Shown: in pieces, positions 3,226-40,528 of the stretch
Layout: each line of letters starts with the position of its first letter
Position numbering within the stretch: position 1 is the first letter of the stretch
NCBI GenBank assembly: GCA_024398835.1
Contig: JAKSIK010000004.1
Location: forward strand, 1-64,000
Length of the DNA stretch: 64,000 bases
Origin: Fibrobacter sp.
GTDB lineage: Bacteria; Fibrobacterota; Fibrobacteria; Fibrobacterales; Fibrobacteraceae
Direction: 5' to 3'
The notes under the pieces: model-generated
Told to the model about the DNA's origin: nothing
Database searches by the model: none
What the model saw: only the letters and a program-made list of their open reading frames with translations
Made by a program: the position numbers and the translations under genes

Positions 3226-5523
3226 ATGAAAACGAACTCAAAAATTTTAGGGCTTGCGGCTGGTTTTGGCCTTATCGCCTCCGCCGCATACGCAGACATT
3301 TCCATCTCCGTTGACGCAAAGTCGGGAGTGACCCCCATCTCCCCCTACATCTTCGGGAGAAACATTGACCAGGTTGGAGACAAGGAAGAATCCGACCCGG
3401 ATAAAGCAGCCGAGGTTCTCGCTCAGGAAACCGCTTTCTACAAGGCGATGAGCGAATCTGGCATGCACATGCTTCGCGCAAATACAGGTAACAATGCGAC
3501 ACGCTATAACTGGCGCCGTAAACTGAGCGTTCATCCAGACTGGTACAACAACGTGGAAGTTCACGACTGGGACATGACCGCCAAGAAAATCCAGGAGAAC
3601 ATGCCTGGAGTAAATGCTCTGTATGCCTTCCAGCTCACGGACTATGCCGCAGCCACCCGAGACTACAATTTTCCCGACTGGGAGTTCTACATCAACCATG
3701 GAAACAAGTGGGCCAATCAAACACTGGACCTAGCTGGTGGCGGGCAGGTTTCGGATGATGGGCAGACCCTCATCAAAGCTGGCGACTACTCCCTCTACAA
3801 CATGAAATGGCCGGCAGACTCCACGGTAGCCATTCTGGACCACTGGAAAAACGATCTCAAGTATGACATGTCCCGCTTCCAGTACTGGAGCATGGATAAC
3901 GAGATGGAAATCTGGGCAAACACCCATAGCGACTTGCCGCTGCATGTGACAGGAGACTTTTTGGTGAAACGCTACGTGGATGTGGCGAAAAAAGCCCGCG
4001 CGGCCTGGCCAGATATCAAGTTGACAGGGCCGGTCGTTGCCAATGAATGGTACTGGTGCTCCATTGCTTATGGCGGAGGGAACTCCGGACGGATCAAAAA
4101 GGAAGCTACAGGCGAAAGCCGAGACTACTGCTGGCTTGAATACTTTATCAAGAAAGTGGCTGAGGAACAAAAGAAAAGCGGTCAACGTTTGATTGACGTC
4201 TTCGATATCCACTGGTATCCCGATGAGTCCTCATACGAGGACCAGGTGAACTGGCACAGGGTTTTCTTTGATACAACCTATGTCTATCCTGGCGCAAACA
4301 GTATTAAGCAGGTGAACGGTGGTTGGGACGAATCCATTAAAAAGGAATTCATCTTCAAGCGAATCAATGATTGGCTTGACCAGTATTTTGGAAAAGGGCA
4401 CGGCATTACACTCGCATTGACCGAAACGACCCTCGGTAAAACGGACGATGCCATGACAACCGCCGTGATTTACGCTTCATGGCTCGGAACCTTCATGGAT
4501 CATGGCGTGGAAATCTTTACTCCGTGGACATGGCATCCGGGCATGTACGAAACCGTCCATCTCTTCAGCCGCTATGGCTTTGAAAACCGCGTGGCATCCG
4601 TCTCCAGCAACGATTCGCTGGTTTCCGCCTACTCTTCTATAAACAGTTCCAAATCAGGAATGTCCATCATTCTGGTAAACCGAGCCCAATATACATCTCA
4701 GAAGGTGAACGTTAGCGTTTCCAATCTAGAAGGGCTTCTTGAAACTGCAAATGTCTTGACTTTGTCTGGCGTTAGCGGCGAGACCTTCGTTTCTCACACC
4801 CAGAACGCCCTCAAAAAGAGCACCGCTACCGTGAGCAATGGGAAAATCGCGCTCACCCTTCCGGCAAAGTCCATCACCGCGGTGGTGCTAGCAGCAAATG
4901 TCGCAGAAGAATCCTCCAGTTCCTCTGAAGCGCTTGCAAAATCGAGTTCCTCTGAAGAAATTGTGGAATCCAGCTCTTCTGAAATCTTCGCGGAATCCAG
5001 TTCCTCAAAGGACTTCGCAAAGTCCAGCTCTTCTGAAAAATTAGAATCAAGCTCTAGTAGAAGCGAGGTTTTCAGTTCTAGCGAAGGCTACTCCTCCTGT
5101 TCTTCCTCTGAAGAAATTGTGGAATCCAGCTCTTCTGAAGACTTCGCGGAATCCAGTTCCTCAAAGGACTTCGCAAAGTCCAGTTCATCAAAAAAGCATC
5201 CCTCAAGATTTGACGAAGACGATGATGAGGATTGGACCGACAACGAGGATTTCAACGAGGAAGAATCTGAAGGACTTCTCCCCAAAAACATACAAGGCAA
5301 CCCATTTATTTATAGGAATGGGAATCTCTGGTTCGTGAGCAATGCCGCGGGCACTGTCCGCTCCGTCCAGATATTTGACGGCCTCGGCACTCTAATGAAA
5401 TCCTTCAGCCAAATCGCCCGCGGGAATACCGCCCTCGCTACAGAAGGCCTCGCTCCCGGCGCTTACATTGTCCGCGTAAATTCCACAAACGGAATCATCA
5501 GCCAGCGGATACTGCTGAAGTAA
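3226..5523 (+). CDS. Secreted GH44 glucanase with poly-Ser linker
   Basis: A 765-residue secreted glycoside hydrolase family 44 protein; members cleave beta-1,4 glucans such as cellulose, xyloglucan or mannan. After a signal peptide (cleaved near AYADIS, residue ~23) the catalytic part opens with the family phrase ISPYIFGRN. The acid/base Glu lies in MDNEMEIW (~residue 227), the phrase RLIDVFDIHWYPDE is very close to characterised GH44 enzymes, and the nucleophile Glu is in LALTETTLG (~400). A beta-sandwich follows (~465-560), then a linker of Ser clusters separated by short acidic segments (~565-660), an Asp/Glu-rich patch, and a ~70-residue C-terminal sorting-type domain ending SQRILLK. The usual NEP of the acid/base motif is NEM here. 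The second GH44 gene at 54445-56442 keeps NEP. Confidence 0.85.
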   Translation: MKTNSKILGLAAGFGLIASAAYADISISVDAKSGVTPISPYIFGRNIDQVGDKEESDPDKAAEVLAQETAFYKAMSESGMHMLRANTGNNATRYNWRRKLSVHPDWYNNVEVHDWDMTAKKIQENMPGVNALYAFQLTDYAAATRDYNFPDWEFYINHGNKWANQTLDLAGGGQVSDDGQTLIKAGDYSLYNMKWPADSTVAILDHWKNDLKYDMSRFQYWSMDNEMEIWANTHSDLPLHVTGDFLVKRYVDVAKKARAAWPDIKLTGPVVANEWYWCSIAYGGGNSGRIKKEATGESRDYCWLEYFIKKVAEEQKKSGQRLIDVFDIHWYPDESSYEDQVNWHRVFFDTTYVYPGANSIKQVNGGWDESIKKEFIFKRINDWLDQYFGKGHGITLALTETTLGKTDDAMTTAVIYASWLGTFMDHGVEIFTPWTWHPGMYETVHLFSRYGFENRVASVSSNDSLVSAYSSINSSKSGMSIILVNRAQYTSQKVNVSVSNLEGLLETANVLTLSGVSGETFVSHTQNALKKSTATVSNGKIALTLPAKSITAVVLAANVAEESSSSSEALAKSSSSEEIVESSSSEIFAESSSSKDFAKSSSSEKLESSSSRSEVFSSSEGYSSCSSSEEIVESSSSEDFAESSSSKDFAKSSSSKKHPSRFDEDDDEDWTDNEDFNEEESEGLLPKNIQGNPFIYRNGNLWFVSNAAGTVRSVQIFDGLGTLMKSFSQIARGNTALATEGLAPGAYIVRVNSTNGIISQRILLK

Positions 5524-5557
5524 CTACAGCGACACCAACTACACGCAAAAAAATGCC

Positions 5558-5587
5558 GGCTCCCTCCCAAAAGGGAGCCTGATTTTT
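5558..5587. terminator. Bidirectional terminator, GH44 / NRPS
   Basis: Stem GGCTCCC (5558-5564) with GGGAGCC (5573-5579), followed by T-rich sequence on the plus side and preceded by A-rich sequence (5547-5553) that becomes a T run on the minus side. It serves both converging genes. Confidence 0.85.
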
Positions 5588-8500
5588 ACCCGAAGAAGTC
5601 CAAATCCTGGAGGGTTTCCACCATCTTTTCGAGGTATTCCTTGCTGATGAGCGGCCAAGCGAATCCCAAGCGGTAGAGGGCCTTCGTCGTGAAGGATGTG
5701 TCGGAGTGGATTTTCACGCGCACTTCGTACTTGACATCCCCTTCTTTAAGGCGGTCCGCGCTCATGTTGTCGGCCATGCTCTTCTCGGACTTGTTCAGGT
5801 AAACCACCAGGCTGGAAATGGAAGAGACGTCCTCCATTTCGTCCAGCATCTTCTTGAACCGTTCCTCGAATTCGCCCGTTTCCACAAGCTTGATGTTGTA
5901 ACCCTTGCGGTTCATGGTCTCCACCATGTAGCCGTACTGGATGATGTTGCAGTTCTTGGCGTGGAACACGGTGAATTCGTCCGGAGTGCCGGAGAGTAGC
6001 ACCACGGCGCGAGCCGCGGCATCAATGGGAGAAAACTCGATGCTCATGTTCATCAAGTCCACAGGATAGCAGCCGAGAACGCTGTAGCCCAGGAACTGCT
6101 TGAGGAAGCCGTTGTTATTGGCGTTGATTTGGAATTCACCATCGGCGTTGCGGGCCATGAGGTTTCCGAGGCGGATGATTTTTCCGCGGACACGGCCTCT
6201 GGAGGTGGCATCGATGAGCGCCTGTTCTGCCAGATACTTGGAATACACGTACTTGTTTTCCAGAGACTGGCCGATGTTCAGGTTACATTCCTTGAAGACG
6301 AAATCGTTAGGAATGTTTCCATTGATGGACTCGCCGCAAACACTGAGAGAAGAAATCTGCACCAGTTTTGCCGCGGAATGTTCCGCAATGGTGATGAGGC
6401 GTTCGACAGTTGTCAGGTTGTCGCGCTTCAAATCCTCCAGCTTGCCGAAGTGCTTCACGTTGGCGGCAGTGTTGATGATGGTATCGAAGTGGACGCCTGC
6501 AAGTTTTTCTTCCAGTTTTTCGTCTGTCAGTTCGCAGTCGATGACGGAGACGCGGGATTTGTCCTGCTTATCGTACCAATCCTCGAAATAGTAGGTCATG
6601 ATCATCTCGACGCGACTTTCCGCAGACTGATCTTTTTTGCCGCGGACGAGGCAGATGACCTTGCCATCAGTATTCTCCAGCAAATCCTTGAGAATATGGC
6701 TCCCCAGGAAGCCGGTAACGCCCGTAAGCAGTACATCGCCAACCCCATCATTCCGAATCTTCGGGAGGTTTGCATCCACGTTGTAGTCGAGAGAGGAGTA
6801 GTTGAACTTCGCCTTTTCCTCACCCGTGGGAGCAAAGATGTCCTCGCTATCATCATCGCCCTTGGAGACATAACGGGCAAGCATCTGAGGCGTTGGATTT
6901 TCGAACAAATTCTTGTAAACCACATCGAAGCCGGCCTTGTTCAGCTTCACCACCAGCTGCACTGCAGAAATGGAGGAACCGCCCACATTGAAGAAGTCAT
7001 CGTCGGCATAGACCTTGTCGAGGCAGAGAATCTCGTTGAAGATTTCGCAGATTTTGGCTTCCGTCTCGTTGGCGGGTTCGGCACCCTGCTTGAGGGAAGT
7101 CGGCGTGGGCTTCGGGAGTTTCCGCTTGTCCACCTTGCTGTTGGCATTCAGCGGAATTTCGTCAATCTGCATAGTCACCGCAGGCACCATATAGGGCGGC
7201 TTCGTGGCAGAAATAAACTCGTTCAGTTTTTCAACATCCAGAGTGCCATCGAACACCACGAAAGCAGCGATGAACTTGCCTCCGGAGGGGTTGTCGTAAG
7301 CCTGGACGGTGGCGTTTTTCACGCCCGGGAACTCGCGCACAATCTGCTCCACCTCGGTGAGTTCCACACGGAAGCCGCGAATCTTCACCTGACCATCGCG
7401 ACGGCCGATAAACTCGTAGTTACCGTCGGCAAGGAGACGCACCACATCGCCAGTACGATACATCCGCTGATAACGCGGGTCTGCGGAGAAGGGGTTGCGC
7501 ACAAAGGATTCCGCGGTCTTCTCGGGGCGGCCGAGATACTCGCGGCCCACCTGCGTGCCTGCAATGCAAAGTTCACCGCTAGCAAACGGAGGCAAGCGAT
7601 GGCCGTAGGCATCCATAATGTAGAGCTTGGTATTCAAGCCGGCAGAGCCAATAGGCTGCAGGGCGCTAGCATTTTGCACCTCGTAGCTTGCAATGTAAGC
7701 CAAGCATTCACTGGGGCCGTAGCCGTTGATAAACTTGAAACTCTTGGAAGGTTCGAAGGGAACCAGTTTCTCGCCACCCACCAAGAAACTCCGCAATGTC
7801 TTGCACTTGGAGGTTTGAGCAAACATACGTCCCACCTGGGTCGTCATGAAGCCCTGAGTGATGGAATTTTCAATATAGAATTCATCGATTTTTGTGAGGT
7901 CAAGGCGGATTTCGTCCGGAATCACGTAGAAGGTTCCGCCTGCCATCAGTGTGGCGAATACATCCATAACTCCTGCGTCAAAACCGAAGCTGGCGTAAGA
8001 GGCCACGCGGCTTTCTTCCGACATGTTCATGACGCGCTCGTGGTTGCGGAACATGTTCAGAAGGTTGTGGTGTTCCAGCACGCACCCCTTGGGAGTGCCC
8101 GTGGTGCCAGAGGTATAGATGATGATGAATGCGTCGCTGGGACGAACGTCTGCTGTGGGCTTTGCTGCCGGCAGTTTTTCGATTTCGTCAGTGAAGAGCA
8201 CTTCGCCGTCGTATTCCTCCAGAAGGTCACGGAGACTTCTATCCGCGATGAGGAATTTGGCCTTGCAGTCCTTCACCATGAAGTTCAGGCGTTCCTTCGG
8301 ATAAGTGGGATCCAAAGGCTGGTAGGCGGCTCCGGATTTTACCACACCCCAAGCCGTGATTGCCATGAAATCGTTACGCGGAATGAGGATAGAGACAAAG
8401 TCGTTGCGCTTTACACCCTTTGAAATGAGGTAGGCGGCCAATCGGTCCGTCAATTCGCCAAACTGGGCGTAAGTGTAGGCACGGTCTTTGAACTTGACCG

Positions 8501-11500
8501 CAAAATGTTCCGGATTCTTCGCCACGAGTCTCGAAAGGAGATCCACTGCGGTTTCATTCTCGTTGTAAGCGAATTCCGTATTGTTCCAGGAATCCATGAT
8601 GGCGAGGGTGGAACTGTCCGTCAGAGTCACGTCGCGAATTGAGGCGTTCTGGAGCATGGACTTCACGCAAGCCTCGAAGGCACTCACCAGGAACTTGCCA
8701 AAATCCTCGCTGAAGGAGGCTCGGTCAATGTCCAGAGAGTAGCGGAACTTGTCGAGAGCCTTGTCCACCTGCAAAACAATGGGAGCCTTTTCGCCAGAAA
8801 GCGGCAGAGAAATCAATTCAGCGGGAGCTGCACAGAATTCCTTAAACTCGAAATTGTCGCCCTGGTAGATGAACATCACATCTGCCTTCACGCCAAGTTC
8901 GCGGCTGATTTCCGAGAAGGAATAGAGGTCATTCGCCATGCTGTCCACCAGCTGTGTGCTGGTTTCAGACACCAGTTCAGCAACGGCACGCTCGCGGAGG
9001 TTGCAGTACACAGGCAAAGTCTTCACCAGCATGGCAACGCTGTTCTGCACGCGGGAATCGTTACGCCCGTTGTAGACGGTGGTGAACACCGGCTCGTCCG
9101 AACCGACATAGCGACCGAGAACAAGCCCGAAGGCGGAGCAGAGGAAGCCATTCACACTGACATGGTTCTTTTCGCAGTAGGCCTCCACCTGACTGCAAAG
9201 ATTTGCGGAACTATCGCGAGTCAGATTGCGGCAACCGTCTTCTGTAGCGATGGCGACATCACCATTGGGCAGGCAATCGGCATCCACGCCAGAGAGCAAA
9301 TTCCCGTAGAACTCCTTAGCCTTTCCGAGAGCATCTCCCTTGCGGAGTTTTTCCTCGTCGAAGGCGACATCGAAGCCCGTGTACTTCTCGGTTTCCAGAG
9401 TCTCGCCAGCATAAGCCTTGGAAATATCCTGCAACAAGTTTGCAACAGAAGTTCCGTCGCCAACAATGTGGTGAATATCCATGAAGAAGTAGTTCTCCTT
9501 GCCGCACACCAGTGCAACGCGGAACAGGAGGCCACCCGTCAGATTGAAGGGATGGACAAGACGTTTCTTCATGGCTGCATCCATTTCGCCATTGATGATT
9601 TCGATGTTGCTTTCATTCCAAGCTTCGCCATCCATGCGTTTCTGGCGCACGCGACCCTCTTCGTCCGTAAAGATGCGGAACTTCATGTACGGATGAGCGG
9701 CAACCGTCTTCACCACTGCAGATTTCAGCTTTGCCAAATCAATGGACTTGTCCAGCTTCAAAAGCACAGGAATGTTGTAAACAGTCTCGTTGGGCTGAGA
9801 AAGGCATTCGATGTAGATGCCCTCCTGAGTCTTGGTCAGCGGATAGTCTGCGAGAATTTCGCGGGTCTCCCCTGCATCTTCCTTCACGCGACCCTCAATC
9901 AAATCCGCCAGCTGTTCCACCGTCGGATTTGCCTTCAAATCACGGATGGTCATGGCCACGCCGAATGTCTCGGAGAGGGCAGCATTCACGCGAATGGAGG
10001 CGAGCGAGTTGAGACCCGCAGCATACAAGTCCGTATTGATGCCAAATTCATCAAAGCCAAGAATCTTCGCCACGACCTCGAACACGCGTTTCTGCATGTC
10101 GGTTTTCGGAGCCACCACATCCTCAAAGCGGATTTCAGGCTTCGGCAGCTTGCGTTTATCCACCTTGCCGTTGGCATTCAGCGGAATCTGCTCCAGCTGT
10201 ACAGTCACCGCAGGCACCATATAGGGCGGTTTTTCCGCGGCGATGAAGGCATTCAGTTTTTCCACATCCAGTTTGCCATCGCACACCACGAAGGCCGCGA
10301 TGAACTTGCCGCCAGCAGGATTGTCGTAAGCCTGAACCGTGGCATTTTTCACGCCCTCGAACTGGCGCACAATCTGCTCCACTTCCGTCAATTCCACACG
10401 GAAGCCACGAATCTTCACCTGACCGTCGCGACGTCCCACAAAGTCAATCTCACCCGTAGGCAGCAAGCGCACGATATCACCCGTGCGGTACATGCGCTGG
10501 TAATGCGGATCGCTGGAGAACGGATTCTGCACGAAAGATTCCGCAGTCTTTTCAGGGCGACCAAGATAACCGCGTCCCACCTGGGCGCCAGAAATGCACA
10601 ATTCGCCACAAGCACCCGCAGGCAACATGCGATTGAACTTGTCGACTACATACAACTTTGTATTGCCGCTGGGAATACCGACGGGCTGCAACGCCTTGCC
10701 ATCGGTCACCACATGATGGGCCACGTAGGCAATGGTTTCACTGGGGCCATAGCCATTGATAAAAGCAAAATTCTTTGGCGGATCAAAAGGCACCAGCTTT
10801 TCGCCGCCCACCAAGAAGTTCTTCAAAGAGGTGCACTTGGTCGATTGAGCAAACATTCGACCAACCTGGGTCGTCATAAAGCCTTGAGTGATGGAATTCT
10901 TCACATAGAATTCATCCATCTGAGCCAAATCCAAGCGAATTTCGTCTGGAATCACATAGAGTGAACCACCTGCCATGAAGGTGGTGAACACATCCATGAC
11001 GCCGGCATCAAAGCCAAAGCTGGCATAAGTGGCCACATGGGAATTTGCATCCAATCCCATGGTTTTGGCATGGTTGTAGTGGAAGCAGACGATGTTTCTG
11101 TGTTCCAGCACGCAGCCCTTGGGAGTGCCCGTAGTGCCGGAAGTGTAGATGATGACGATGGCATTGTCCGGCGCAATCTTCACATCCACAGGCGCTGTTG
11201 GAGCCGGCAATTTTTCAATCTTGTCCGTATACAGCACTTCGCCCGTATATTCGTCCAGGAGGTCGCGGAGGCTACGGTCTGCAATAAGAAGTTTCGCACC
11301 GCAGTCCTTCACCATGAAGTTCAGGCGTTCCTTCGGGTAGGTGGGATCCAAAGGTTGATATGCAGCACCAGACTTCACCACGCCCCAGGCTGTAATGGGC
11401 ATAAAATCGTTGCGGGGAATGAGCACGGATACAAAGTCGTCCTTCTTGAAACCTTTAGCAACAAGATAAGACGCTAATTTATCTGTAATGGCGTTAAATT

Positions 11501-14500
11501 CGCCATAAGTCCAGGTTTTGTCCTTGAAGGAGACGGCGACGCGTGACTGATCATCGCTTGCACGACGCAAAACATCCACCACATTCTCACTGCGGTCATA
11601 TTCCACATCCGTATCGTTCACACCATCCACAAAGGCGCTGGCCTTTGCAGAAATCAAATTCATATCGGAAAGTTTCTTCACAGAAAGCAAGCCATCCACA
11701 ATCTCTTCGTAGAGGCTGCCGAAACTTTCGATATTTTCACGGCTGTACTTTGCGCGTTTAAAGCTGAGGGTTACCTTGTAGCCAACCGCAGACTTCTTCA
11801 CCATCATATCCATGTTGGAAATAGCATCGATGGTATCCAAATCTTCCGTCAAAGCCATGCAGCCATTCAGCGTGAAATCATTCAGCATCTCGGACTGATA
11901 AACGAATTTCACATCGCCCGTAATGCCGTATTTTCCGGCAAGTGTCGCAAAGGAAGCGCTATCGTTACCCATGGTCTGGAACAAGTTGTTCTGGGCCTCA
12001 TTGAGGAACGTTCCCACCTCGGCATTTTCGTCAAACTCCATGTGGATGGGGAATGTGCGCACAAACATACCGATGGAATTATCCAGTTCATTCACATGGC
12101 GTCCATTGTTCACGCTGGCCACCAGGCTCTCATTCTGACCCGTATATTTTGCCAAGGCATAGCAGAAGGCAGAAAGCAGCAAAGTGTTTTCCGTAATGCC
12201 ATGACCGCGGGTGAACTGCTCCACCTTCTCGCGACTTGACTTCAGCACAAACTCAACAACATCGCGGCGCTCGCCCAAGGATTCCTCGGACTTATCGGGA
12301 ATGATATTGGAATCGCATTCCACACCACCCACATACTTGTCAAAGTACTCGTAGGCCTTCGCCACCTGCTCGCTCTTCTGCCGGGCGATTTCGTACGCAG
12401 AAACCTCAAACGGCGTCCAGCTTTCGGGAGCGATTTTCTCGCCATTGTAGGCCGTTGCAATCGCACGTTCGAACACCACGAGGGAAGTGCCGTCAAACAG
12501 AATGTGATGGATGTCGAAAAGCAGATGCACATGCTTCGGGGTCTTCACCACAACAGCACGCCAGAGGGCTCCGTCAGCGAAGGAGAAGGGCTTCACAAAA
12601 GAAGCCTTCATCTGCAGGAACTCGTCGTCACTCGTTTCCACAAATTCCACTTCCGGCAGTTTTTCCGCTGGCTTCATCATGGGCGTTCCATTCACCACGT
12701 CAATACGTGTGGCGAACGCCCGGAAATTCGCGACAGCCTTCGTCACCGCATCCTGAAGGCGGCGAGCGTCCACACTGCCCGCGGCAAAATCGAAAGCAAA
12801 AGGAATGTTGTACTTGCAACTGAATTCGTTTGCGATACCATCCAGATAGATGCCCATCTGGCTATCCGTCAGAGGCATGGTCTCCTGCACATCCAGCGCG
12901 ATGTTTTTACCCGTTGCGCCAACCTTCAGCGCCATGTTCCGCGGAGTGCGACCACTCATCACATCAACAAAGGTGAGTCCCAAAGCTTCACATTCCTTAA
13001 TCAAGACCATGGTCTTGATGGAATCGCCACCCAGAGTGAAGAAGTCGTCATCAATACCCACTTGCGGTACAGACAGGATCTTCTCGAACGCCTTACAAAT
13101 GGCAGCCTGCACCTCATTTTCCGGCGCCACAAACTGCTTCTGGAACAAACTAGCATCCGGTTCCTTCAGCGCCAAGCGATTCAATTTTCCGTTGGCATTG
13201 GTAGGCATCTTCTCCAGCTTCACAAAGAAGGCCGGCATCATGTAGGGCGGCAATTTTTCAGCAATGGTCTTCTTCAGCAAATCCAAATCTACCGCGCTCT
13301 TCTCGGTATAGTAGGCACAGAGATAGGTTTGGCTATACTTGTTCAAAAAATGCTGGACAGCAGCATCTGCCACTCCCGGGAAGTTGCGAATCACCGTCTC
13401 GATTTCGCCCGGCTCCACGCGCTGGCCATTGATTTTCACCATCCAGTCTTTACGGTTCAGGTAAAGCAGGTTTCCATCGGGCAATCGTTTGGCAATATCC
13501 CCCATGTGGAGAAGCAAATCCCAGCCATCGCGATCCTTGAACGGATTCGGCGTGAGGGTTTTCGCCGTAAGTTCCGGCATATTGAGGTATCCCGAAAAGC
13601 CATAGCCCGTCACGCAGACTTCACCTTCATCGCTTTCATTGCCATCTTCATCCAACAGGTAAATATTTATGCCCTCTACAGCTTTACCAATCGGGGTGGA
13701 CGGATAAGACTTGTCAATTTCAAAGAAGGAAACCGGCAATACTTCGGACTGGCCATACAAATTCACCAGGCGATAATTCTTCGGAGCGGTATCCACCACT
13801 TTTTCAGAACCCGTGAGAATAATTCGCATGTAGTTGCCCTTCACATTGAAGTAGCGGAGCATGCGGGGCGTAATCATGGCCACAGTCACTTTATTCTGGT
13901 ACAAAAATTCCGAAAGCTTCGAAGGGTCCTTCACATATTCTACGGGCGAGACCAAAATTGCAGCACCACAAGAAAGTGCACCCAGCATATCAAACAGCGT
14001 GATGCCAAAGGCAAAGGAGGAATTCTTCGCAAAAATGTCCTTATAGGTTCCATCCACACCTGTGCAGAGGCCATGGGCCGCAAAGCCCACACTCACCTGG
14101 GTATGTATGATTCCCTTGGGAACGCCTGTGGAGCCCGAGGTAAAGAGGATGTAGGCGTCATCCGTAGCCGCCGGCAGTTCCTTCAACTCAGCCGGTTTCG
14201 CCTTCATGGCATCTTCATAATCCTTCTTCACAAACAGCAATTTCGCTTCGCTGTTGGCAAGGACCTTATCAATGCGCTCCTTCGGATATTCCGTATCCTG
14301 AGGTATACAGACAATGCCGTACAAAAGGCAAGCCGTCATGGTCACCACGTAATCGTTGTTTCGTTCCATGAGGATGACGATGCGGTCACCCTTCTTGAGC
14401 CCTTTTTCAAAAAGATACCCCGCAACCTTTGCAGCACGCGCACCGAGTTCCGCGTAAGTGATATCTTCGACATTCACACCCTTGAGAAGAGCAAGACGAC

Positions 14501-14552
14501 TCCCATAATTTTTAATGGAATTGAGAAGCAACTGACTAATTGTTTTAGGCAT
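5586..14552 (-). CDS. Trimodular NRPS with terminal reductase (A-T-C-A-T-C-A-T-R)
   Basis: A 2988-residue nonribosomal peptide synthetase. Domain order: A1 (1-~480; FTSGSTGVPKG, NLYGQSE, NANGK), T1 (Ser ~508, LGGDSIK), C2 (HHILFDG ~684), A2 (FGFDAGVMDVF ~1184; NGYGPSE; NANGK), T2 (Ser ~1514, AAGLNSL), C3 (HHIVGDG ~1695), A3 (~2010-2490; NANSK), T3 (VGGSSIS ~2525) and a reductase (GVTGFLGSH ~2612; YVYSK ~2770). There is no thioesterase. R domains release the thioester with NAD(P)H as an aldehyde or alcohol, so a three-unit peptide aldehyde, or its cyclic imine, is the expected product type. The first module lacks a C domain, so it starts the chain. By manual alignment to the GrsA code, A2 and A3 both read DAMFLGGAYK (hydrophobic residue likely), while A1 reads GIFMITLPVK and lacks the Asp that binds an alpha-amino group. 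An AAGGA Shine-Dalgarno precedes the ATG. No phosphopantetheinyl transferase or exporter lies nearby. Confidence 0.93.
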   Translation of the reverse strand: MPKTISQLLLNSIKNYGSRLALLKGVNVEDITYAELGARAAKVAGYLFEKGLKKGDRIVILMERNNDYVVTMTACLLYGIVCIPQDTEYPKERIDKVLANSEAKLLFVKKDYEDAMKAKPAELKELPAATDDAYILFTSGSTGVPKGIIHTQVSVGFAAHGLCTGVDGTYKDIFAKNSSFAFGITLFDMLGALSCGAAILVSPVEYVKDPSKLSEFLYQNKVTVAMITPRMLRYFNVKGNYMRIILTGSEKVVDTAPKNYRLVNLYGQSEVLPVSFFEIDKSYPSTPIGKAVEGINIYLLDEDGNESDEGEVCVTGYGFSGYLNMPELTAKTLTPNPFKDRDGWDLLLHMGDIAKRLPDGNLLYLNRKDWMVKINGQRVEPGEIETVIRNFPGVADAAVQHFLNKYSQTYLCAYYTEKSAVDLDLLKKTIAEKLPPYMMPAFFVKLEKMPTNANGKLNRLALKEPDASLFQKQFVAPENEVQAAICKAFEKILSVPQVGIDDDFFTLGGDSIKTMVLIKECEALGLTFVDVMSGRTPRNMALKVGATGKNIALDVQETMPLTDSQMGIYLDGIANEFSCKYNIPFAFDFAAGSVDARRLQDAVTKAVANFRAFATRIDVVNGTPMMKPAEKLPEVEFVETSDDEFLQMKASFVKPFSFADGALWRAVVVKTPKHVHLLFDIHHILFDGTSLVVFERAIATAYNGEKIAPESWTPFEVSAYEIARQKSEQVAKAYEYFDKYVGGVECDSNIIPDKSEESLGERRDVVEFVLKSSREKVEQFTRGHGITENTLLLSAFCYALAKYTGQNESLVASVNNGRHVNELDNSIGMFVRTFPIHMEFDENAEVGTFLNEAQNNLFQTMGNDSASFATLAGKYGITGDVKFVYQSEMLNDFTLNGCMALTEDLDTIDAISNMDMMVKKSAVGYKVTLSFKRAKYSRENIESFGSLYEEIVDGLLSVKKLSDMNLISAKASAFVDGVNDTDVEYDRSENVVDVLRRASDDQSRVAVSFKDKTWTYGEFNAITDKLASYLVAKGFKKDDFVSVLIPRNDFMPITAWGVVKSGAAYQPLDPTYPKERLNFMVKDCGAKLLIADRSLRDLLDEYTGEVLYTDKIEKLPAPTAPVDVKIAPDNAIVIIYTSGTTGTPKGCVLEHRNIVCFHYNHAKTMGLDANSHVATYASFGFDAGVMDVFTTFMAGGSLYVIPDEIRLDLAQMDEFYVKNSITQGFMTTQVGRMFAQSTKCTSLKNFLVGGEKLVPFDPPKNFAFINGYGPSETIAYVAHHVVTDGKALQPVGIPSGNTKLYVVDKFNRMLPAGACGELCISGAQVGRGYLGRPEKTAESFVQNPFSSDPHYQRMYRTGDIVRLLPTGEIDFVGRRDGQVKIRGFRVELTEVEQIVRQFEGVKNATVQAYDNPAGGKFIAAFVVCDGKLDVEKLNAFIAAEKPPYMVPAVTVQLEQIPLNANGKVDKRKLPKPEIRFEDVVAPKTDMQKRVFEVVAKILGFDEFGINTDLYAAGLNSLASIRVNAALSETFGVAMTIRDLKANPTVEQLADLIEGRVKEDAGETREILADYPLTKTQEGIYIECLSQPNETVYNIPVLLKLDKSIDLAKLKSAVVKTVAAHPYMKFRIFTDEEGRVRQKRMDGEAWNESNIEIINGEMDAAMKKRLVHPFNLTGGLLFRVALVCGKENYFFMDIHHIVGDGTSVANLLQDISKAYAGETLETEKYTGFDVAFDEEKLRKGDALGKAKEFYGNLLSGVDADCLPNGDVAIATEDGCRNLTRDSSANLCSQVEAYCEKNHVSVNGFLCSAFGLVLGRYVGSDEPVFTTVYNGRNDSRVQNSVAMLVKTLPVYCNLRERAVAELVSETSTQLVDSMANDLYSFSEISRELGVKADVMFIYQGDNFEFKEFCAAPAELISLPLSGEKAPIVLQVDKALDKFRYSLDIDRASFSEDFGKFLVSAFEACVKSMLQNASIRDVTLTDSSTLAIMDSWNNTEFAYNENETAVDLLSRLVAKNPEHFAVKFKDRAYTYAQFGELTDRLAAYLISKGVKRNDFVSILIPRNDFMAITAWGVVKSGAAYQPLDPTYPKERLNFMVKDCKAKFLIADRSLRDLLEEYDGEVLFTDEIEKLPAAKPTADVRPSDAFIIIYTSGTTGTPKGCVLEHHNLLNMFRNHERVMNMSEESRVASYASFGFDAGVMDVFATLMAGGTFYVIPDEIRLDLTKIDEFYIENSITQGFMTTQVGRMFAQTSKCKTLRSFLVGGEKLVPFEPSKSFKFINGYGPSECLAYIASYEVQNASALQPIGSAGLNTKLYIMDAYGHRLPPFASGELCIAGTQVGREYLGRPEKTAESFVRNPFSADPRYQRMYRTGDVVRLLADGNYEFIGRRDGQVKIRGFRVELTEVEQIVREFPGVKNATVQAYDNPSGGKFIAAFVVFDGTLDVEKLNEFISATKPPYMVPAVTMQIDEIPLNANSKVDKRKLPKPTPTSLKQGAEPANETEAKICEIFNEILCLDKVYADDDFFNVGGSSISAVQLVVKLNKAGFDVVYKNLFENPTPQMLARYVSKGDDDSEDIFAPTGEEKAKFNYSSLDYNVDANLPKIRNDGVGDVLLTGVTGFLGSHILKDLLENTDGKVICLVRGKKDQSAESRVEMIMTYYFEDWYDKQDKSRVSVIDCELTDEKLEEKLAGVHFDTIINTAANVKHFGKLEDLKRDNLTTVERLITIAEHSAAKLVQISSLSVCGESINGNIPNDFVFKECNLNIGQSLENKYVYSKYLAEQALIDATSRGRVRGKIIRLGNLMARNADGEFQINANNNGFLKQFLGYSVLGCYPVDLMNMSIEFSPIDAAARAVVLLSGTPDEFTVFHAKNCNIIQYGYMVETMNRKGYNIKLVETGEFEERFKKMLDEMEDVSSISSLVVYLNKSEKSMADNMSADRLKEGDVKYEVRVKIHSDTSFTTKALYRLGFAWPLISKEYLEKMVETLQDLDFFG

Positions 14553-14703
14553 ATCTATAATCCTTGTATTTCACCTTGAAATCTATAAAAATTACCGCAA
14601 ATGGTTTTACAATCCGAATTAGAACGCTCTAACCGCGGGAGCCATGTAAATCAGGCCAAAAGTTTTCTAAATTTGCCCCCGAAAACAAATAATGGAGGCA
14701 AAA

Positions 14704-25956: not shown

Positions 25957-26210
25957 AGGATACCTCCAATATGATTTGGATTTAGTAAGATGGCCACTCG
26001 GCCACACGCCAAGATTTCAAACAAAAAAGCACACGACACGAAGGCCATGTGCAAATAAGAAGTTTAAAATCTGGGGCGAAATTTAGCTCGCCAATTTCAC
26101 GGCGTAAAGGGATTCCTCGCAAAAAAAATCATTTTGCAAACAACCGTTTCCTAAACCAACAAAAAATCCACAAATTCCCCATTTTTGCGTCATTTCTGCA
26201 CGTTTTTATG

Positions 26211-26223
26211 TATATTCGAAACA
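26211..26223 (+). promoter_or_regulatory. TATATT box, probable leaderless start of OLD nuclease
   Basis: TATATT at 26211-26216, six bases (CGAAAC) before the ATG at 26223, with no Shine-Dalgarno. The spacing is identical to that of the MBL gene. Confidence 0.5.
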
Positions 26224-28010
26224 TGCAGCAACCACAGGCTTTGAGACTATCGGAAATCACTATTGCCAATCTCCGCTCCATTCAGCGGCAGACGTTTCCC
26301 CTCAGTAGCATCACCGCCCTCATCGGCTACAACAACGCCGGCAAGACGAACATCCTGATGGGCATCCGCTGGCTGCTCTCCCCCTTCTCGCTGGACATCT
26401 CCTACTTCGACGACACCAACGTGCCCGTAGAGGTGGAAGGAGTGTTCGATGGCGTGAGCGATGCGGTCCTCACCCGCCTGGGCGAAGAGAAGGCCGCGCA
26501 AATCAAGCCCTTCCTCCTGAACGGCCGCATCCGCATCAAAAAGGTGCAGCGCGTTCCCGGAGAACCTGCCGAAAATATCGAGATATGGGTGTTCGTTCCC
26601 CCCAACCTGCGAAACGGCGCCTACGCCAAAAAGGATTGGGTCCGCGCCACGGAAGATTTCAAGCACGCCTTCAAGCGCATGTTCCCCGAGCCCATCGCCA
26701 TCTGGGATTTTGAAGGCAACCGCGCTTTCACCAAACTCCTCCACGAAATTTTCAAGCCCCTGGAACGCCGCTTCGGTGGCGAGATCAACGATCTCCTTCT
26801 CAAGTTCAACGATTTGTTAAATCCGAACAGCGAGAACCGCGCCGAAGAAATCCAAAGTTTTGACAGAGACGTTAATGACAAATTAAAGCCTCTCTTCCCC
26901 AGTGTTAAAGTGGAATTGGATGTGCCGGTTCCCACGCTGGAAACATTCCTCCAGGGTGCAAGCCTCAAGGTCATTGACGAAGATGACGGCTTTGAGCGGG
27001 ACATCAACCGCATGGGTGCCGGCTCCCAGCGCGCCATACAGATGGCGTTGGTGCGCTACCTTGCCGAAATCAAGAAGCACCACAACAACCATTACCTGAA
27101 CCGCACGCTCCTCCTCATCGATTCTCCAGAGCTGTACCTCCATCCCCAGGCGGTGGAACTGGTTCGCGTGGCGCTGAAGAATCTCTCCAACGAAGGCTAC
27201 CAGGTGGTCTACGCCACACACTCCGCCCAGATGATTACCAGCGAAGATGTGAGCACGTCGCTCCTCATCCGCAAGAACAAGGAACGCGGCACCTACATGC
27301 GTAAGCGCATGGAAGATGCGGTTCGACAGGTGGTGCAGGACGCACCTAGCCAGTTGCAGATGCTCTTCAGTCTGAGCAACAGCAACGAACTTCTCTTTGC
27401 GGATTACGTTCTTCTTACCGAGGGTAAAACCGAATGGCGGGTGTTGCCTGCGCTCTTCGAGCGCATCACAGGGCAAAGCTTCGCGCTCATCAAGTGTGCC
27501 CTGGTACGCCAAGGTGGCGTCAGCAACACCCGTAAGAGCATGCAGGTTCTCTCTGCCATGGACATGCCCACTCGGGCCATCGTGGATTTGGACTACGCAT
27601 TCACTACCGCCACCCGGGATGGCTTCCTGGACAATGACGATCCGGACCTCAAGTACTGCCGCGACCTGTTCCGGGAGTTGGCCTTCCACCACCACCTCCG
27701 GCTAGTGAACGGCATTCCCGTCAGCAAGCACTCCAACATCTCTGCCGCAAAAGCCTACGCCATGATGGCTGCCATGCCAGAAGCGGAGCGCGCCATCAAG
27801 AGCATCCACGCCAAACTCCGGAGCCAGGGCATCTGGGTCTGGACCCGTGGCGCCATCGAAGAGCACCTGGGTCTGGATGCAAAGAACGAAGCCGCCTGGA
27901 GCAAGTTCATCGAGCGGAGCCGGTCTCAAAAATTCACAAGCACACTTCCGGACTATCAAAGCGTAGAGGACCTCTGCCGCTGGATTCTGGAAGGCAGCCA
28001 AGAAAGCTAA
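26223..28010 (+). CDS. OLD-family ATP-dependent nuclease
   Basis: About 595 residues. The N-terminal ABC-type ATPase has Walker A GYNNAGKT (~35-42), a signature-like GAGSQRAIQMAL (~265), and Walker B-like LLLIDSPELYLHP (~300). The C-terminal half has a TOPRIM domain: LLTEGKTEW (~400) with the conserved Glu, and IVDLDYAF (~455) with the acidic pair. OLD proteins cut DNA with metal ions and act in phage exclusion or DNA repair; class 1 members stand alone, as here, whereas Gabija GajA comes with a helicase. A longer open frame upstream (from 26049) is rejected because it starts in AT-rich non-coding-looking DNA and the TATATT box sits before 26223. The gmk gene begins 9 bp downstream. Confidence 0.82.
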   Translation: MQQPQALRLSEITIANLRSIQRQTFPLSSITALIGYNNAGKTNILMGIRWLLSPFSLDISYFDDTNVPVEVEGVFDGVSDAVLTRLGEEKAAQIKPFLLNGRIRIKKVQRVPGEPAENIEIWVFVPPNLRNGAYAKKDWVRATEDFKHAFKRMFPEPIAIWDFEGNRAFTKLLHEIFKPLERRFGGEINDLLLKFNDLLNPNSENRAEEIQSFDRDVNDKLKPLFPSVKVELDVPVPTLETFLQGASLKVIDEDDGFERDINRMGAGSQRAIQMALVRYLAEIKKHHNNHYLNRTLLLIDSPELYLHPQAVELVRVALKNLSNEGYQVVYATHSAQMITSEDVSTSLLIRKNKERGTYMRKRMEDAVRQVVQDAPSQLQMLFSLSNSNELLFADYVLLTEGKTEWRVLPALFERITGQSFALIKCALVRQGGVSNTRKSMQVLSAMDMPTRAIVDLDYAFTTATRDGFLDNDDPDLKYCRDLFRELAFHHHLRLVNGIPVSKHSNISAAKAYAMMAAMPEAERAIKSIHAKLRSQGIWVWTRGAIEEHLGLDAKNEAAWSKFIERSRSQKFTSTLPDYQSVEDLCRWILEGSQES

Positions 28011-33655: not shown

Positions 33656-33657
<2 letters not shown>

Positions 33658-36600
33658 AGTCAAACCGCAGCATCAAAGCGATTTCAAACTGCAGTATCTG
33701 CCGCAGATGTGGCGTCTCATCGTCCAGCTTTTCATGAATCTGACGATATTCGATATAGCTACTCATAGACGCAATCTTATTGAATTCATAGCTTGCACTG
33801 GGGCGAATGAACCATTCATGGGTGCGCAAGGGCACCGTACGGTCCGTCAGACTCAACTTGGGCTTGTATGCCACAAAGGGTTCCGCATAATCGTCAAACT
33901 TCCACTGTTTGTAAACACCATCGGTACCGCTCTCCTTTTCCCATACCTTGTAACCAGGATCCGGGTCATACTCCTTACGGATGGTCTTATTATAATCATA
34001 ACCAGCAGTGAACTTCAAGTCAATATCATTATCCAGCTTAAAGTACCACTTCCAAATCTGGAATCCACGCTTGGTCTTTAACGGGTAAGAAATCGTCAAA
34101 TCATTTCCCACATTAATGGCGAAGTCATTATAGAGGGATGTATGAATCCATGGAGTTTCCCAGAAGTACTTCGTGGTATCCTTGGAATTGGCTACGGAAT
34201 CCGGCCAGCTGGGAAGCCCAATCACTTCTTCCTTAGGGCGCCTATCCGTAGATTCAATCTTCAGACGAACACTGTTTTCAATTCGCAAATTCTTCTGCGT
34301 CAAGAAGGTCACGCGAACCAGCGGGTTGAAATTCCATACCTCAGCCCAAGAATCTTCTGCGCTCTGGAAAGGCCGCACCGTAGTAGTCTTAGTGTAGTCA
34401 AAGCGGTGGGCGGTGCTTACGCTCTTGAAACGATTTAAGAAAGACACCCGCTGCGAGAAGTTAGGCACCGTGACGCCAATGCCAATCTTCGGCCACACCG
34501 TAGTAGTATCCAGATACAGCGGGTATTCTCGAGCCTGGGAAAAGTCTTCTTTCCACTGCAAATCTCCCGTAATTCCAATATCCCAGAAGGGCAGCGTAAT
34601 ACCCGTACCCACCTGAAGTTGTCTTGATACAGAATGTGTAAAGCTTCCCTGATAGACCAAAGTATCCACATGACGATTGCGGTATTCCGCAAACTGTTCA
34701 AAATCACTGCGCTCCGTAAGGCCCATATCGCCAGAAACAATATTCCACAGACCTCGATTGCGATATCCATTTCCAAGACCAAGACCATAGAGATAATACT
34801 GCAACGGCGTCACATGTTGTTCTTCATTGAGTTGCGCAAGCGTGAAGTTCTCGCCCACCGTGTTAGTGCTGGCACTCCAATTAAAGCGCACTTCATTCCA
34901 TTTAATTTTCTGTACCGCACGCGAAGCACCGTTATCTTTGCCAAACATATTCAAGAAATCAATAATCCTAAAGGAGGGTGAAAATTCAAAACGGTTCGTT
35001 TGGGAAATAGTCCAGTAATTCTTCTCGATACTAGTCTCGTCAAAGAAATCAAAATCGTCAGGAATCGTCTTCTGCTGGTTAAAGTCCGAAGTAAATGTGG
35101 TGTTGAACGGGATGAAGGGAATAATCAGAGGATTGAAACCAATCTTGAACTGCTGATTACGGCTTCGTTCGTTGCGAAGAATGCCATAAGAGCGTCCATA
35201 TTCTCGGTGGCCAACACTATCCACTTTGTAAAAATTGGTACTATCGTACAAAATTTCATACGAATCAGGGTTTTGCATATCTATAGCCATTTCCTTCCCT
35301 GATCCATCAACACGCGGAATAGTGTCGTAGGGAATTACAACCAAACTATCCCGAGAAACGTAAACCTTTCTGTCAGTATGATCATAATCAAAGATATAAT
35401 CGCTAGCAAAGACACCGCCCTCCTTGGAGGTAAAGAAGTTCTCCTTCACAAAGCCTTCCCTATCACCACCACCATACATATCACGAGAGATATTCAAGCT
35501 ATAGCTCGTAGAAAGGAAAGAGAGAATGTTCCAACGCATATTCAGTTTGTGATTCAAATCTGCAGTGTAGGTCACCACCTTGTCCACCTGAGGCTCCACA
35601 AAGTCCGGATCTCTATCCTGGTCCACATACCGCACATAGTTGAAATCAAAGAGGGTCAAGTCAAAAGTCTGAGGCCAGGGTTCAAATTCCACCTTGGCGT
35701 AATTTTTCGCAAAGACGTTGTCATACTTGTTCAGGCCTTCCATCGGTTTAATCTTAAATAGGCTAAATGTTCCAAGTTTATATTCCAAAATCGTATGGTA
35801 GGAATAGGTGGAGTCGGCACTTGTGGTAGCACGACCTTCAGACTCGTTGTATGAATAGCTGATGGCCGGGCGCTCCAACAGAATCTGGGACGCAATCTCC
35901 CCTATCCTGGAATCCGCCGCTTTATAATCCTTGCTATAGCTGATACTAAAATTCTTCTCCCGAACATAGGATTCATAGCCCTTGGACTCGGCATCCGCAC
36001 GCAATTCCTCTTCCTCATCATCTTCCGTCACCGAAAGTTCATTCTGGAACATATCCTTCGTCAAATCGCCAAAACTGCTCTTTTTCAAAAGCAAGTCATC
36101 CGTAGGCTTCATGTAGGGGCGCTTTGTGGTGCTGTTGTAGCCAATGTTCACCGGGATATGGAACCCGAGGCTGTCATTCAAGAACTTGTTCAAACTGATA
36201 TTGATATCGCCAGAGATGTCCAATTGGGAGGCAGCATCAGAAACTTTAGGCTTTGGAGACCCTCCCGTTGTAGAAAGCGTTGCAAAGTCACCATCCTGAT
36301 AGCGAATTGCACCAGAAAGCGAAATGAAATCTGCAAAATCAACTTGCGCAGAAGTTCTGGCGGCATAACCCCATTCCGTATCCATATCCGAAAGTCTGAA
36401 GTCATCTATCCAGAAGGTACCTTCCAAATCTGAAGGATCTGCGGAGGAATCCGCAATAATCACAAAACGCATCCAGTCAATATTTGTGACGGAAGGGTTA
36501 CCCACCAACTTAATTTGTTCCTCCCTATCACCGCCCAAATTCTTTACCACGGGTTCTACAAAAGGCGGATGGCGACCGCGTTTCATATCGGAAAAGTCCG

Positions 36601-39600
36601 AAATATTCATGGCAAAGGCATTGTCTAGCCAGTTGTGTTCATGGCAATCCTGCGTGCGCTCAGAAGCAGAGCATTCATACTTTACCGGACGGAAGCTCCA
36701 TTCGTAGTAATCGTTGGAGCCATCCAAAGAGCCTTCACCAAACTGAATGGCAAAACGCACCGGAACCTTGGACGCTTCGGTCTGGTAGTGAATTTCCATC
36801 TTGACAGACTTGTAAGAGGAAAGGTCCTTCACGTCCGTCTCAAAAATACGAGTCACTCCCACTTCCTGACCCGGAGACATGTTCTGGTAATCCAGCACCA
36901 AAGCCGTTTCCTTCAAAGGAGCGTTGGTATCTGTATCACGTTCTGTCTTGATGTTGGGAGACTTGGTGTATTTGTTGGAATTTTCCCTATTGTTAATGGT
37001 AGAGACCTTGACATAGCTGGTATCACGAGTATCCACCGATTCCGTCACTTCCACAGGAGAACCATTGACCTCAACAATCTGGGAATTTTCCGTAGAACTG
37101 GTCTTATAAAGATCCGCAACCGTCGTCTCTTCCCAGGAATTGCCCACAACCGCCAAATCCACAATCTGAATCTTGGCTTCAGCCACCCCTGGATTCAGTT
37201 TACCCACCCAAAGGCGCGTAAACAAGGCCTCTGCCAAAATAGATTTGTAATCACTACCTGTAGGAGAAACAATAGTGTCATACTGATTCAATGGAATCCG
37301 CCACTTACGCCAGCCATTTTTCAGTTCCTCAAAATTGGCAGGATCCGTATCAGACAAATCAATGCGATAGCGAACAAAACTGATATCCGTATCCAAAGAA
37401 CCATTGCGGTTAATATCCTCCGTATCATAGGCACGCTCGCCCGAGTTGTTCTCAGTACCATTGATATTGACCGGAGGATCGCTTTCATCATCCAAATCGT
37501 CATCGTAGTCATCCTGGGCAATATCCATGGTAGAAGCGTCTGAATTCAGTGTAGTGACCTTAGAAGACACGCATCCCGAAATACGGCAATCCCAAACCGT
37601 CCGAACTTCATCGCTACCAGAAAGTCCATCAATACCTTTATCATGCAACGCCGTAGTGGTGCCCAAATCGTTTTCGCCATCGTATGTCCCATTGGGTTCA
37701 GCACCATTGATGGAAATATCTTCACTCACCAAACCCAAATCAATGAAAATGGAACCCACATTACCACGAGCCACAATCTCAATGTATTTCATGTCGCTCA
37801 AATCCTGATAGTAGGAACTGTTGGGCCGCATAATGCCACCCCAGGAATTTCCTACCAGGTTATCGTTCGCCCGCAAGGTCATCTTCAGCACCGTCAAGTG
37901 CTGATTATCCACATCGGAGTTCCCTACACTGGGATAGATGTACTTGTACAACTCCGTATTATTGCTATGCCAAATGAACTCGCCCTTATGGCGGAAGTCT
38001 TGATCCGGAATATATGTCGGGAGGTTGGAAGCAACGCCGCCAGGAGGCGATGCCGGGTACCAAGATAGTCTAGAAAGTGGATAGTTCAAACCTGTCAAAG
38101 ATGTTTCAAAGTCTTCTACCAAAGCCTCATTGTCATCGCTAGTATTGGCATTGTGATGACTTGCGGCAAATTCCGCTTCAAAGCGCCAGTTAGATTTTGC
38201 GTTAGTTTCAATCCCAGGAATGGCATTCACCAAATCCGTCAGCACCTGTACGGTATCTTGCAAGCGAAGGTTCATTCCCCAAAGGACGCTAGAGAAGGGT
38301 TCGTTCCCTAAAGTAGGCGTTTTTGCAGTAGTACTCTGACTCTTGTACAAAGCGGTAACACCAAACAAAGAACCCGTTCCAAAACCATACCGTTCCAATG
38401 GCAATTCCGCACGAGCACCCAACAGCAATTTATTGTCTATCTCAAATAGCGGTTCGCATTCGAAGGTGACCTTTATTTCCTTATTGGGGTCCAAGGCTCG
38501 TTCGCTCAAAAGTTCAATCTGGCCCAACTCATAGTTCACTTCATAGTCTGTACCGCGAACAAGAACCGTAGAACCTGCCGTCAACTTTTCCGTACCAGGC
38601 GAAATATCCATACAAGAACCAGCACTTACAGAATAGCTGGAACTTGGGTCACGAACGCTAATGACGGAATTACGACGCTTTCCCACGGACTCAAAGTAGA
38701 AACGGCTGGTGAATCGTCCCAAGTTGTACACGGGAAGCGTATACATCTGGGCCATCGCTCCCGTGGAGTCCAAAAGTCTCAAAGGTTCCAGGCAGTTTTC
38801 CCGAGCCCGTTCCGCTGCCCGCGGGCCAGAGTAATCCTTCATGGGCTTACAAGGAAGCCACATTTCACCGGTATAATTTCCGCTGGCATCCTTCTTGAAT
38901 ATAGAAGCGTCATTGACCAGGGGAACACCCGTAGTTGAATCCGCCACACCCAAATCCTTCAGGAAGGTTCCCGTCGTTCCAGACTTATTCTTCATTCGCA
39001 GCACAAAACTACTGGAAGCTCCATCAGAAATACCCACAGAATACACATTACGAAGCATGAGCTTATCAATATCCGTCAATTCTGAAAGAGTTGCATCCCA
39101 CTGAATAAGCACCACCTTGGAGCCATCCCGAATGGTAGTCCCCGTACGCCCTGTACCATCGTTGCTCCAACTTGCGGCAAGCAACGTATTGCGATTCACT
39201 CCATTAATCTTGAGAATACCTGTTTTAGAATCATAAACGTAATCCGAGGAAGGAATCTCCACCATCCGTTCCACTTTCTTCTCAATGCGTTTTCCACTTG
39301 AAGTCACATATACTACCGTCAGATTGTCAATGACATCTTTAGAAGTATTCATGGCACTACGCTTATAGAGTTTTAAATTCGTTGCCGGATAACTGGAAGT
39401 GGTGCGACCCGCAATCGCGGCATTGATGTAATTGTCTCTCGCATCGTGATTCAAGAAGTAGTAACGGTAGGCCACGAACTGCTTGTCCAAAATCTGAAAT
39501 TCCGTAGTAGTTTCGCTAGCATTAATGGTGTACTCTTCCTGGCTGCCGCCATCCTGCGAGGCAATGGTAGTAAGACGCCAATCCCCCAACTTCCATTCCG

Positions 39601-40528
39601 CTTTAATACCGAACAATCCCTGATGGTTTTCGGAATAGCCCGTCAGTTCCGTACCCGTCAAAGATAGAGAGGTAGTACCCGCTTCCACACGCTGCAGAAT
39701 GTAATCTTCAAACTCGTCCTTGTAGGATTCTTCATAAACCACACGAACCTGGTTCTGGATGCCAAGACCACTTTCCACGTTGTTGATTTCCACCGTGATG
39801 TAAGGGCCAATCTTTCCCTTCACCATGAAACTGGGATCGTATGTCAAAGAAAGAGACGGAACAAGGCTAGTATTAGTACTTCCTTCCGCATCATCCTTCT
39901 CCCCATACCCCTTCAAACGAATATCCATGGTTCCCTGGAGCATGAGTTTAGGCTTATCAAAGCCAAAATCTTTCATCCAGGCAGGCATGGGAACAGGCAC
40001 AGAGATATCAAACATGGAGCCCATTTCTGGAGCTTCATAACCTGCATCCCGTTGTCCAACCAATCCGTTCAACCACAAATTCTTCCGGCCCACATCGTAC
40101 ATGTCCGACACATAATCCGCCAATTCAGGGTAGTGGGCCGTCCATACCGTGGTGGTATCTCTGGAAATTCCATTCACCCGTTTCTCGCTCACGTCCAGTT
40201 CACGGGTAGCCATGTCAATGTCGTGAGTGTACGCCTGCCCCTTGGTGGTTTTCATCAACCGTGGCGAGGCGCCAACGCCTCCAAAAGGCAACATGTTGTT
40301 TAACGGTGTTGCGGAAGGGGGCAATTCCATGTACTGGTAAGTAGGCTGCCATTCCGTCTCTGCCGGGTCCTGCGTTGCAGGTTCCCCACCAGCAGGATAT
40401 TCCGGCGGGTTAGACGCATTCGACCCCTCTTGAGACCATGTCAAAGAGGTTGCCAGGGAGAGAACCAGGCAAAACGCAATACGCCCAAAACGGGTCCTAT
40501 GTGAGAACCTTAAAAACAATAGGCACAA
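33656..40528 (-). CDS. sprA: SprA/Sov-like giant outer-membrane protein (type IX secretion)
   Basis: 2290 residues, close to the ~2400 of SprA, which forms the outer-membrane pore of the type IX secretion system. After a signal peptide (FCLVLSLATSLTWSQ) the early part has typical SprA phrases: MLQGTMDIRLKGYG (~205), VEAGTTSLSLTGTELTGYSENHQGLFGIK (~290), and repeated aromatic beta strands to the end, which finishes with an aromatic strand (IALMLRFD) as in beta-barrels. The start codon is uncertain: the open frame opens with TTG at 40528 and no ATG precedes the signal peptide. It would export proteins with C-terminal sorting domains such as the two GH44 enzymes. Homology was judged by eye. Confidence 0.7.

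Follow-up and report, generated by a model that had tools for sequence, protein, structure and literature searches.

What kind of compound a solitary nonribosomal peptide synthetase (NRPS) could supply to Fibrobacter, a genus of fibre degraders, is the question raised by one gene in the window analysed here, that is, the whole stretch of 64,000 nucleotides. A sequence-only reading had described this gene as a three-module synthetase with reductive release and had proposed a small, tripeptide-like product. In the current analysis, we favour, with moderate confidence, the reading that this single protein assembles an N-acylated dipeptide aldehyde of the ruminopeptin kind. This product type has already been described from the gut, and the window gene is an intact orphan within a widespread gut family.

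The synthetase gene and its surroundings

The NRPS gene reads on the minus strand from an ATG at 14552 to a stop codon at 5586, exactly the interval first proposed, and encodes 2988 amino acids without internal stops. Pfam matches on the protein comprise three AMP-binding, two Condensation, three PP-binding and one NAD_binding_4 domain, and the order A-T-C-A-T-C-A-T-R within this single protein, as originally read, was confirmed by the open reading frame, Pfam and domain HMMs. The features, all on the minus strand, are as follows.

14561..14565, minus strand: ribosome-binding site AAGGA, 8 bases 5' of the NRPS ATG (sequence read directly)
5586..14552, minus strand: whole NRPS gene, A-T-C-A-T-C-A-T-R (ORF, Pfam and domain HMMs)
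13158..14540, minus strand: A1, loading adenylation domain, residues 5-465, Gly in place of Asp235 (alignment to GrsA/1AMU)
12918..13121, minus strand: T1, carrier, Ser511 in LGGDS (507-511; motif search)
11649..12890, minus strand: C1, condensation, HHILFDG at residue 682 (Pfam, motif)
10143..11585, minus strand: A2, code DAMFLGGAYK (alignment to GrsA/1AMU)
9888..10100, minus strand: T2, carrier, Ser1516 in AGLNS (1512-1516; motif search)
8613..9851, minus strand: C2, condensation, HHIVGDG at residue 1694 (Pfam, motif)
7113..8555, minus strand: A3, code DAMFLGGAYK, near-copy of A2 (window identity, A-domain tree)
6867..7070, minus strand: T3, carrier, Ser2527 in VGGSS (2523-2527; motif search)
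5589..6755, minus strand: R, terminal thioester reductase, GVTGFLG at 2611, ISSLSV at 2733, YVYSK at 2768 (Pfam, motifs, alignment)
5547..5579, minus strand: hairpin GGCTCCCT...AGGGAGCC followed by TTTTTTT, the intrinsic terminator of the NRPS gene (sequence read directly)

The terminator hairpin is GC-rich and lies, with its T-run, directly 3' of the stop codon. The core motifs listed from the sequence (two HHxxxDG, three carrier Ser, GxTGFLG and YxxxK) are all intact and non-degenerate; inactive reductase or carrier domains, which the sequence-only reading had named as grounds for its own rejection, were not encountered. No thioesterase was found. Upstream lies a divergent cysS and downstream a convergent GH44 gene, and a Pfam scan of approximately 25 further window genes, extending up to the final few kilobases of the window, found no transporter, carrier-activating transferase or NRPS tailoring gene near the synthetase; the view that companion genes are lacking thus holds among the neighbouring genes scanned. 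Base composition gave no signal of recent foreign origin, as the G+C content of the NRPS gene (~0.49-0.54) is similar to that of its surroundings.

Several neighbours deserve mention in their own right. The GH44 enzyme (3226-5523 of the window) matches Por_Secre_tail, a type IX secretion (T9SS) family, and a SprA-type secretion protein of 2290 residues is encoded at 33656-40528 on the minus strand; together they point to type IX secretion in the window Fibrobacter. Two further proteins, an OLD-like ATPase/TOPRIM protein (26049-28010, plus strand) and an AIPR protein (42139-44031, minus strand), are of kinds linked to phage defence.

The starter adenylation domain and the first unit

In adenylation domains, Asp235 binds the alpha-amino group of the substrate. 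When the three A domains were aligned to GrsA, using a ruler segment checked against 1AMU, A2 and A3 were found to keep Asp235 and Lys517, whereas A1 carries Gly at position 235; its code reads GIFMLGLPVK, with mostly hydrophobic pocket residues and unsure assignments at positions 299-301. The same contrast was followed through 79 related loci from genomes, for which domain orders were determined and 237 A domains aligned. Asp235 is missing from every one of the 71 readable starter A domains of A-T-first proteins (Val 24, Ile 22, Ala 14, Leu 8, Gly 2, Ser 1; three further starters, outside the 71, were unreadable at this position), whereas the family's 157 A domains further downstream all keep it, as do the first A domains of the six C-A-T-first proteins (6/6). 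The motifs used for the family scan (RKDWMVK, in A1, and one from C2) bias the set toward the window A1 clade, but the within-protein contrast between starter and downstream A domains is unaffected by this bias. In an A-domain tree, a branch with support of 0.948 parts the starters, together with the A domains of mini A-T-C proteins, from the elongation A domains and GrsA. Because this contrast at position 235 is family-wide and the starters form a clade of their own, the first unit of the product would most likely not be an amino acid. The tripeptide-like product proposed from the sequence is therefore not supported, given the Gly at position 235 of A1, and an acyl-capped dipeptide is likelier.

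An A domain lacking Asp235 may nevertheless activate an amino acid: McyG, which has Val at this position, is listed as Phe-activating (PMC11253843). A true tripeptide aldehyde, with A1 activating an alpha-amino acid despite the missing Asp235, would also be allowed by the domain count, and the nearest solved relatives of A1 by sequence and fold (LgrA, TycA and GrsA) activate amino acids. Which solved structures come nearest, however, depends on the proteins that have been crystallised and not on the substrate, and a starter-downstream contrast that is complete across the family, with the starters in a separate clade, makes this alternative improbable. An AlphaFold2 model of A1-T1 is confident (pLDDT 90.5). 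A fold search with the A1 model, run to name its substrate, returned general A-domain hits headed by LgrA and GrsA and was uninformative, as was a search of the PDB with a profile of the starter A domains, which likewise returned general A-domain hits.

The residue at position 235 also brings other acids into consideration. Gly is found there in the A1 domain of EnSyn, which loads an alpha-hydroxy acid, and Ile in StsA, which loads a keto acid (PMC11253843), so that unit 1 could be an alpha-hydroxy or alpha-keto acid and the cap hydroxyacyl or ketoacyl instead of fatty acyl. We regard this as unlikely: module 1 has no ketoreductase domain, unlike keto-acid depsipeptide modules, and the characterised gut relative N-octanoyl-Met-Phe-H has a fatty acyl cap (PMC8518294). 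The lack of Asp235 in a starter A domain could serve as a sequence mark that may separate acyl-capped products from tripeptides in gut genome mining.

Elongation, reductive release and the predicted product

The two elongation A domains share an identical ten-residue code, DAMFLGGAYK. When modules 2 (residues ~1020-1470) and 3 (~2032-2480) were compared in 40-residue windows, identity within the A domain was mostly 57-95%, while the flanking C and T domains were mostly only 15-42% identical between modules. The two A domains are closest to one another and next to the A2 of a relative in the same genus, genome G026 (62.6% and 60.4% for A2 and A3, respectively), in which A3 carries a different code. 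Since the near-identity is confined to the A domain, it is most simply explained if a copy of A2 took the place of A3 within the gene, the exchange stopping at the A-domain borders, and we consider this probable. Such a sharply delimited natural swap of A domains in one gene would be of use to NRPS engineers. The code had no match among verified codes. Similar DAMF... codes are common at A2 across the family, and these, along with the pocket letters, suggest that the residue is likely hydrophobic. With A3 read as an A2 copy of identical code, the product would probably be an N-acyl-X-X aldehyde containing two identical amino acids.

The proposed mechanism is as follows. A1 would activate a hydrophobic carboxylic acid lacking the alpha-amino group, in the likeliest case a fatty or branched acid and possibly an aryl or hydroxy acid, and load it onto T1; C1 would couple this acyl unit to the amino acid placed on T2 by A2; and C2 would couple the T2 chain to the amino acid loaded onto T3 by A3, the same residue as that of A2 and probably hydrophobic. 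The R domain would then cleave the thioester with NAD(P)H to give a free C-terminal aldehyde. Aldehydes of this type react reversibly with the Ser or Cys in the active site of proteases.

Release by reduction, already proposed from the sequence, is supported by full-length alignment of the R domain with two solved NRPS R domains, 6vtj (7.7e-53) and that of AusA (4f6c; 1.8e-28), through the Rossmann, Ser/Thr and YxxxK regions. AusA R carries out a two-electron release that yields an aldehyde. An R domain acting twice (four electrons), as in myxochelin-type synthetases, would instead deliver an alcohol, and the protein does score against MxcG (NCBIfam, 821.9 bits), yet under the cut-off of 2300; the far poorer match of the R domain to the solved R domain of MxaA, which is of a different type (only 1e-14), than to AusA R and 6vtj leaves alcohol release rather unlikely. 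As for subsequent cyclisation, free-amine dipeptidyl aldehydes close to pyrazinones. An acylated N-terminus offers no free amine, so the pyrazinone and cyclic imine options of the sequence-only reading are unlikely for an acyl-capped product, which would not be expected to cyclise spontaneously.

The N-acylated dipeptide aldehyde places the enzyme among several known systems. Ruminopeptin-type synthetases of gut Ruminococcus, compared by description, resemble the window gene in reductive release, in the predicted acyl cap with two amino acids and in gut habitat, and uncultured Ruminococcus relatives have the same domain order; ruminopeptin itself has Leu-Glu and a Ruminococcus host, whereas the window NRPS has two identical codes, a Fibrobacter host and no companion cassette. 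Clostridium BGC0001686 (N-octanoyl-Met-Phe-H) and other gut C-A-T-C-A-T-R synthetases follow the same acylated dipeptide aldehyde logic with a terminal R domain. These C-A-T-C-A-T-R synthetases start with a condensation domain that accepts the acyl group, in contrast to the dedicated A-T pair that would load it here. AusA, whose R domain is of the same type, is the best named full-protein NCBIfam model for the window protein, although its 1337.9 bits fall far under the cut-off of 2500. It is dimodular, starts from an amino acid and makes pyrazinones; the window NRPS, with three modules and an A1 lacking Asp235, departs from this plan. In the Oaa systems for gut fatty acid amides (OaaA/OaaACP/OaaC), an A domain activates a non-amino acid and passes it to a C domain, as may the mini A-T-C proteins of the window genome that resemble them; the Oaa components are free-standing proteins that make a single amide without an R domain, whereas the window NRPS is one fused protein with canonical HHxxxDG motifs, from which the active-site motif of OaaC differs (PMC13142362).

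Gut peptide aldehydes are protease inhibitors, with activity reported against cathepsins and the proteasome (PMC8518294, PMC12327764). This class link upholds the part of the sequence-only reading that foresaw a protease inhibitor related to gut peptide aldehydes. By analogy with the reported class, we infer that the Fibrobacter compound would likewise serve in protease inhibition, just as the acyl nature of unit 1 and an aldehyde rather than an alcohol are inferred from the domains. Such a product would bring to a genus of fibre degraders a type of protease inhibitor that is known from Bacillota of the human gut. Our literature search on Fibrobacter NRPSs returned, as its most relevant match, work on fungal NRPSs.

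Maintenance in Fibrobacter and the wider gut family

Conservation in other Fibrobacter genomes had been suggested as a check, and a decayed copy in all related strains as grounds for rejection. Among 113 genomes of the order, full-length relatives (E <= 1e-150) occur in three: the window genome (2.1 Mb, 72% complete) and two of the same genus, the sister genome G028 (99% complete) and G026. G028 holds an intact syntenic copy that differs from the window protein at 24 residues, and the codon changes between the two number 175 synonymous and 24 non-synonymous; the gene is therefore kept by strong purifying selection. The relative in G026 is 41-42% identical, with the same domain order, and lies at a different site. 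While cysS is general in the genus, the NRPS and GH44 genes are both absent from the adjoining stretch in all six relatives examined (6/6). The gene is thus rare in the genus, intact and maintained by selection. No phosphopantetheinyl transferase turned up in the window genome, which is 72% complete; since the sister G028 has one, its absence is most likely an assembly gap.

The window enzyme is a member of a large gut family that is widespread in Bacillota and Bacteroidota, with many members from herbivores. In an R-domain tree, Bacillota, Bacteroidota and Fibrobacterota are intermixed, and the window and G026 types stand apart, the window branch being long (1.3) and its placement unsure. The two Fibrobacter gene types (window and sister; G026) may have been acquired separately or may represent old paralogues, and horizontal transfer of the gene is plausible, not proven. 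Some members carry one or two extra modules, with four or five A domains (L079, L081, L085, L086, L090, L125 and L133), and the family assembly line therefore varies in length.

Neighbouring genes were counted, with families assigned by Pfam, at the 40 loci flanked by 3.5 kb or more on each side. At least one of a MATE exporter (26 loci), a SpoIIE-type phosphatase with HATPase (25), a STAS protein (23) and a phosphopantetheinyl transferase (13) was found nearby at 36 of them. In G026, a SpoIIE-HATPase gene adjoins the synthetase, and the sister locus of the window gene (L065) has none of the four. The frequency of such neighbours, and their absence from the window lineage, could mean that the gene is an orphan remnant whose exporter and regulators are gone and whose active product is no longer made. 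Intact motifs, a ribosome-binding site and terminator of its own and strong purifying selection all argue against this, as do MATE-type genes elsewhere in the window genome that adjoin A-T-C genes, and we consider a remnant very improbable.

These A-T-C genes encode two 940-residue proteins in the window genome: one at L030:1243-4065 (minus strand, contig C43), adjoining a 569-residue MATE protein (Pfam), and one at L031:4616-7438 (plus strand, contig C1), adjoining a 569-residue protein like the MATE protein of L030. Their A domains lack Asp235 (Leu and Ala, respectively). Many Fibrobacter genomes have genes like these, whose products may be acyl amides.

An operon-like string 3' of one synthetase (L092:18922-24024) encodes a MATE protein with a weak HATPase tail, a triosephosphate-isomerase-like protein, a STAS protein and a SpoIIE-HATPase; similar strings occur at L074, L076, L083, L108, L121 and L140. 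In the one MATE protein tested, the C-terminal HATPase-like part was weak (E = 0.009). The literature searched contained no example of such partner-switch control of gut NRPS clusters. Speculatively, an Asp235-less A domain might be a dedicated acyl-loading module in two herbivore-gut lines, one making acyl dipeptide aldehydes and the other, beside MATE genes, A-T-C acyl amides, both under a SpoIIE/STAS/HATPase partner-switch cassette partly fused to the exporter; that the two lines together make up a single, unrecognised system of signalling or protease control across Bacillota, Bacteroidota and Fibrobacterota is an idea we hold only tentatively and think unlikely.

A separate cluster in the sister genome (G028:C77; L063, L027 and L028) combines two C-A-T-C-A-T-R synthetases with two MATE genes and also holds a 614-residue protein without a Pfam match.
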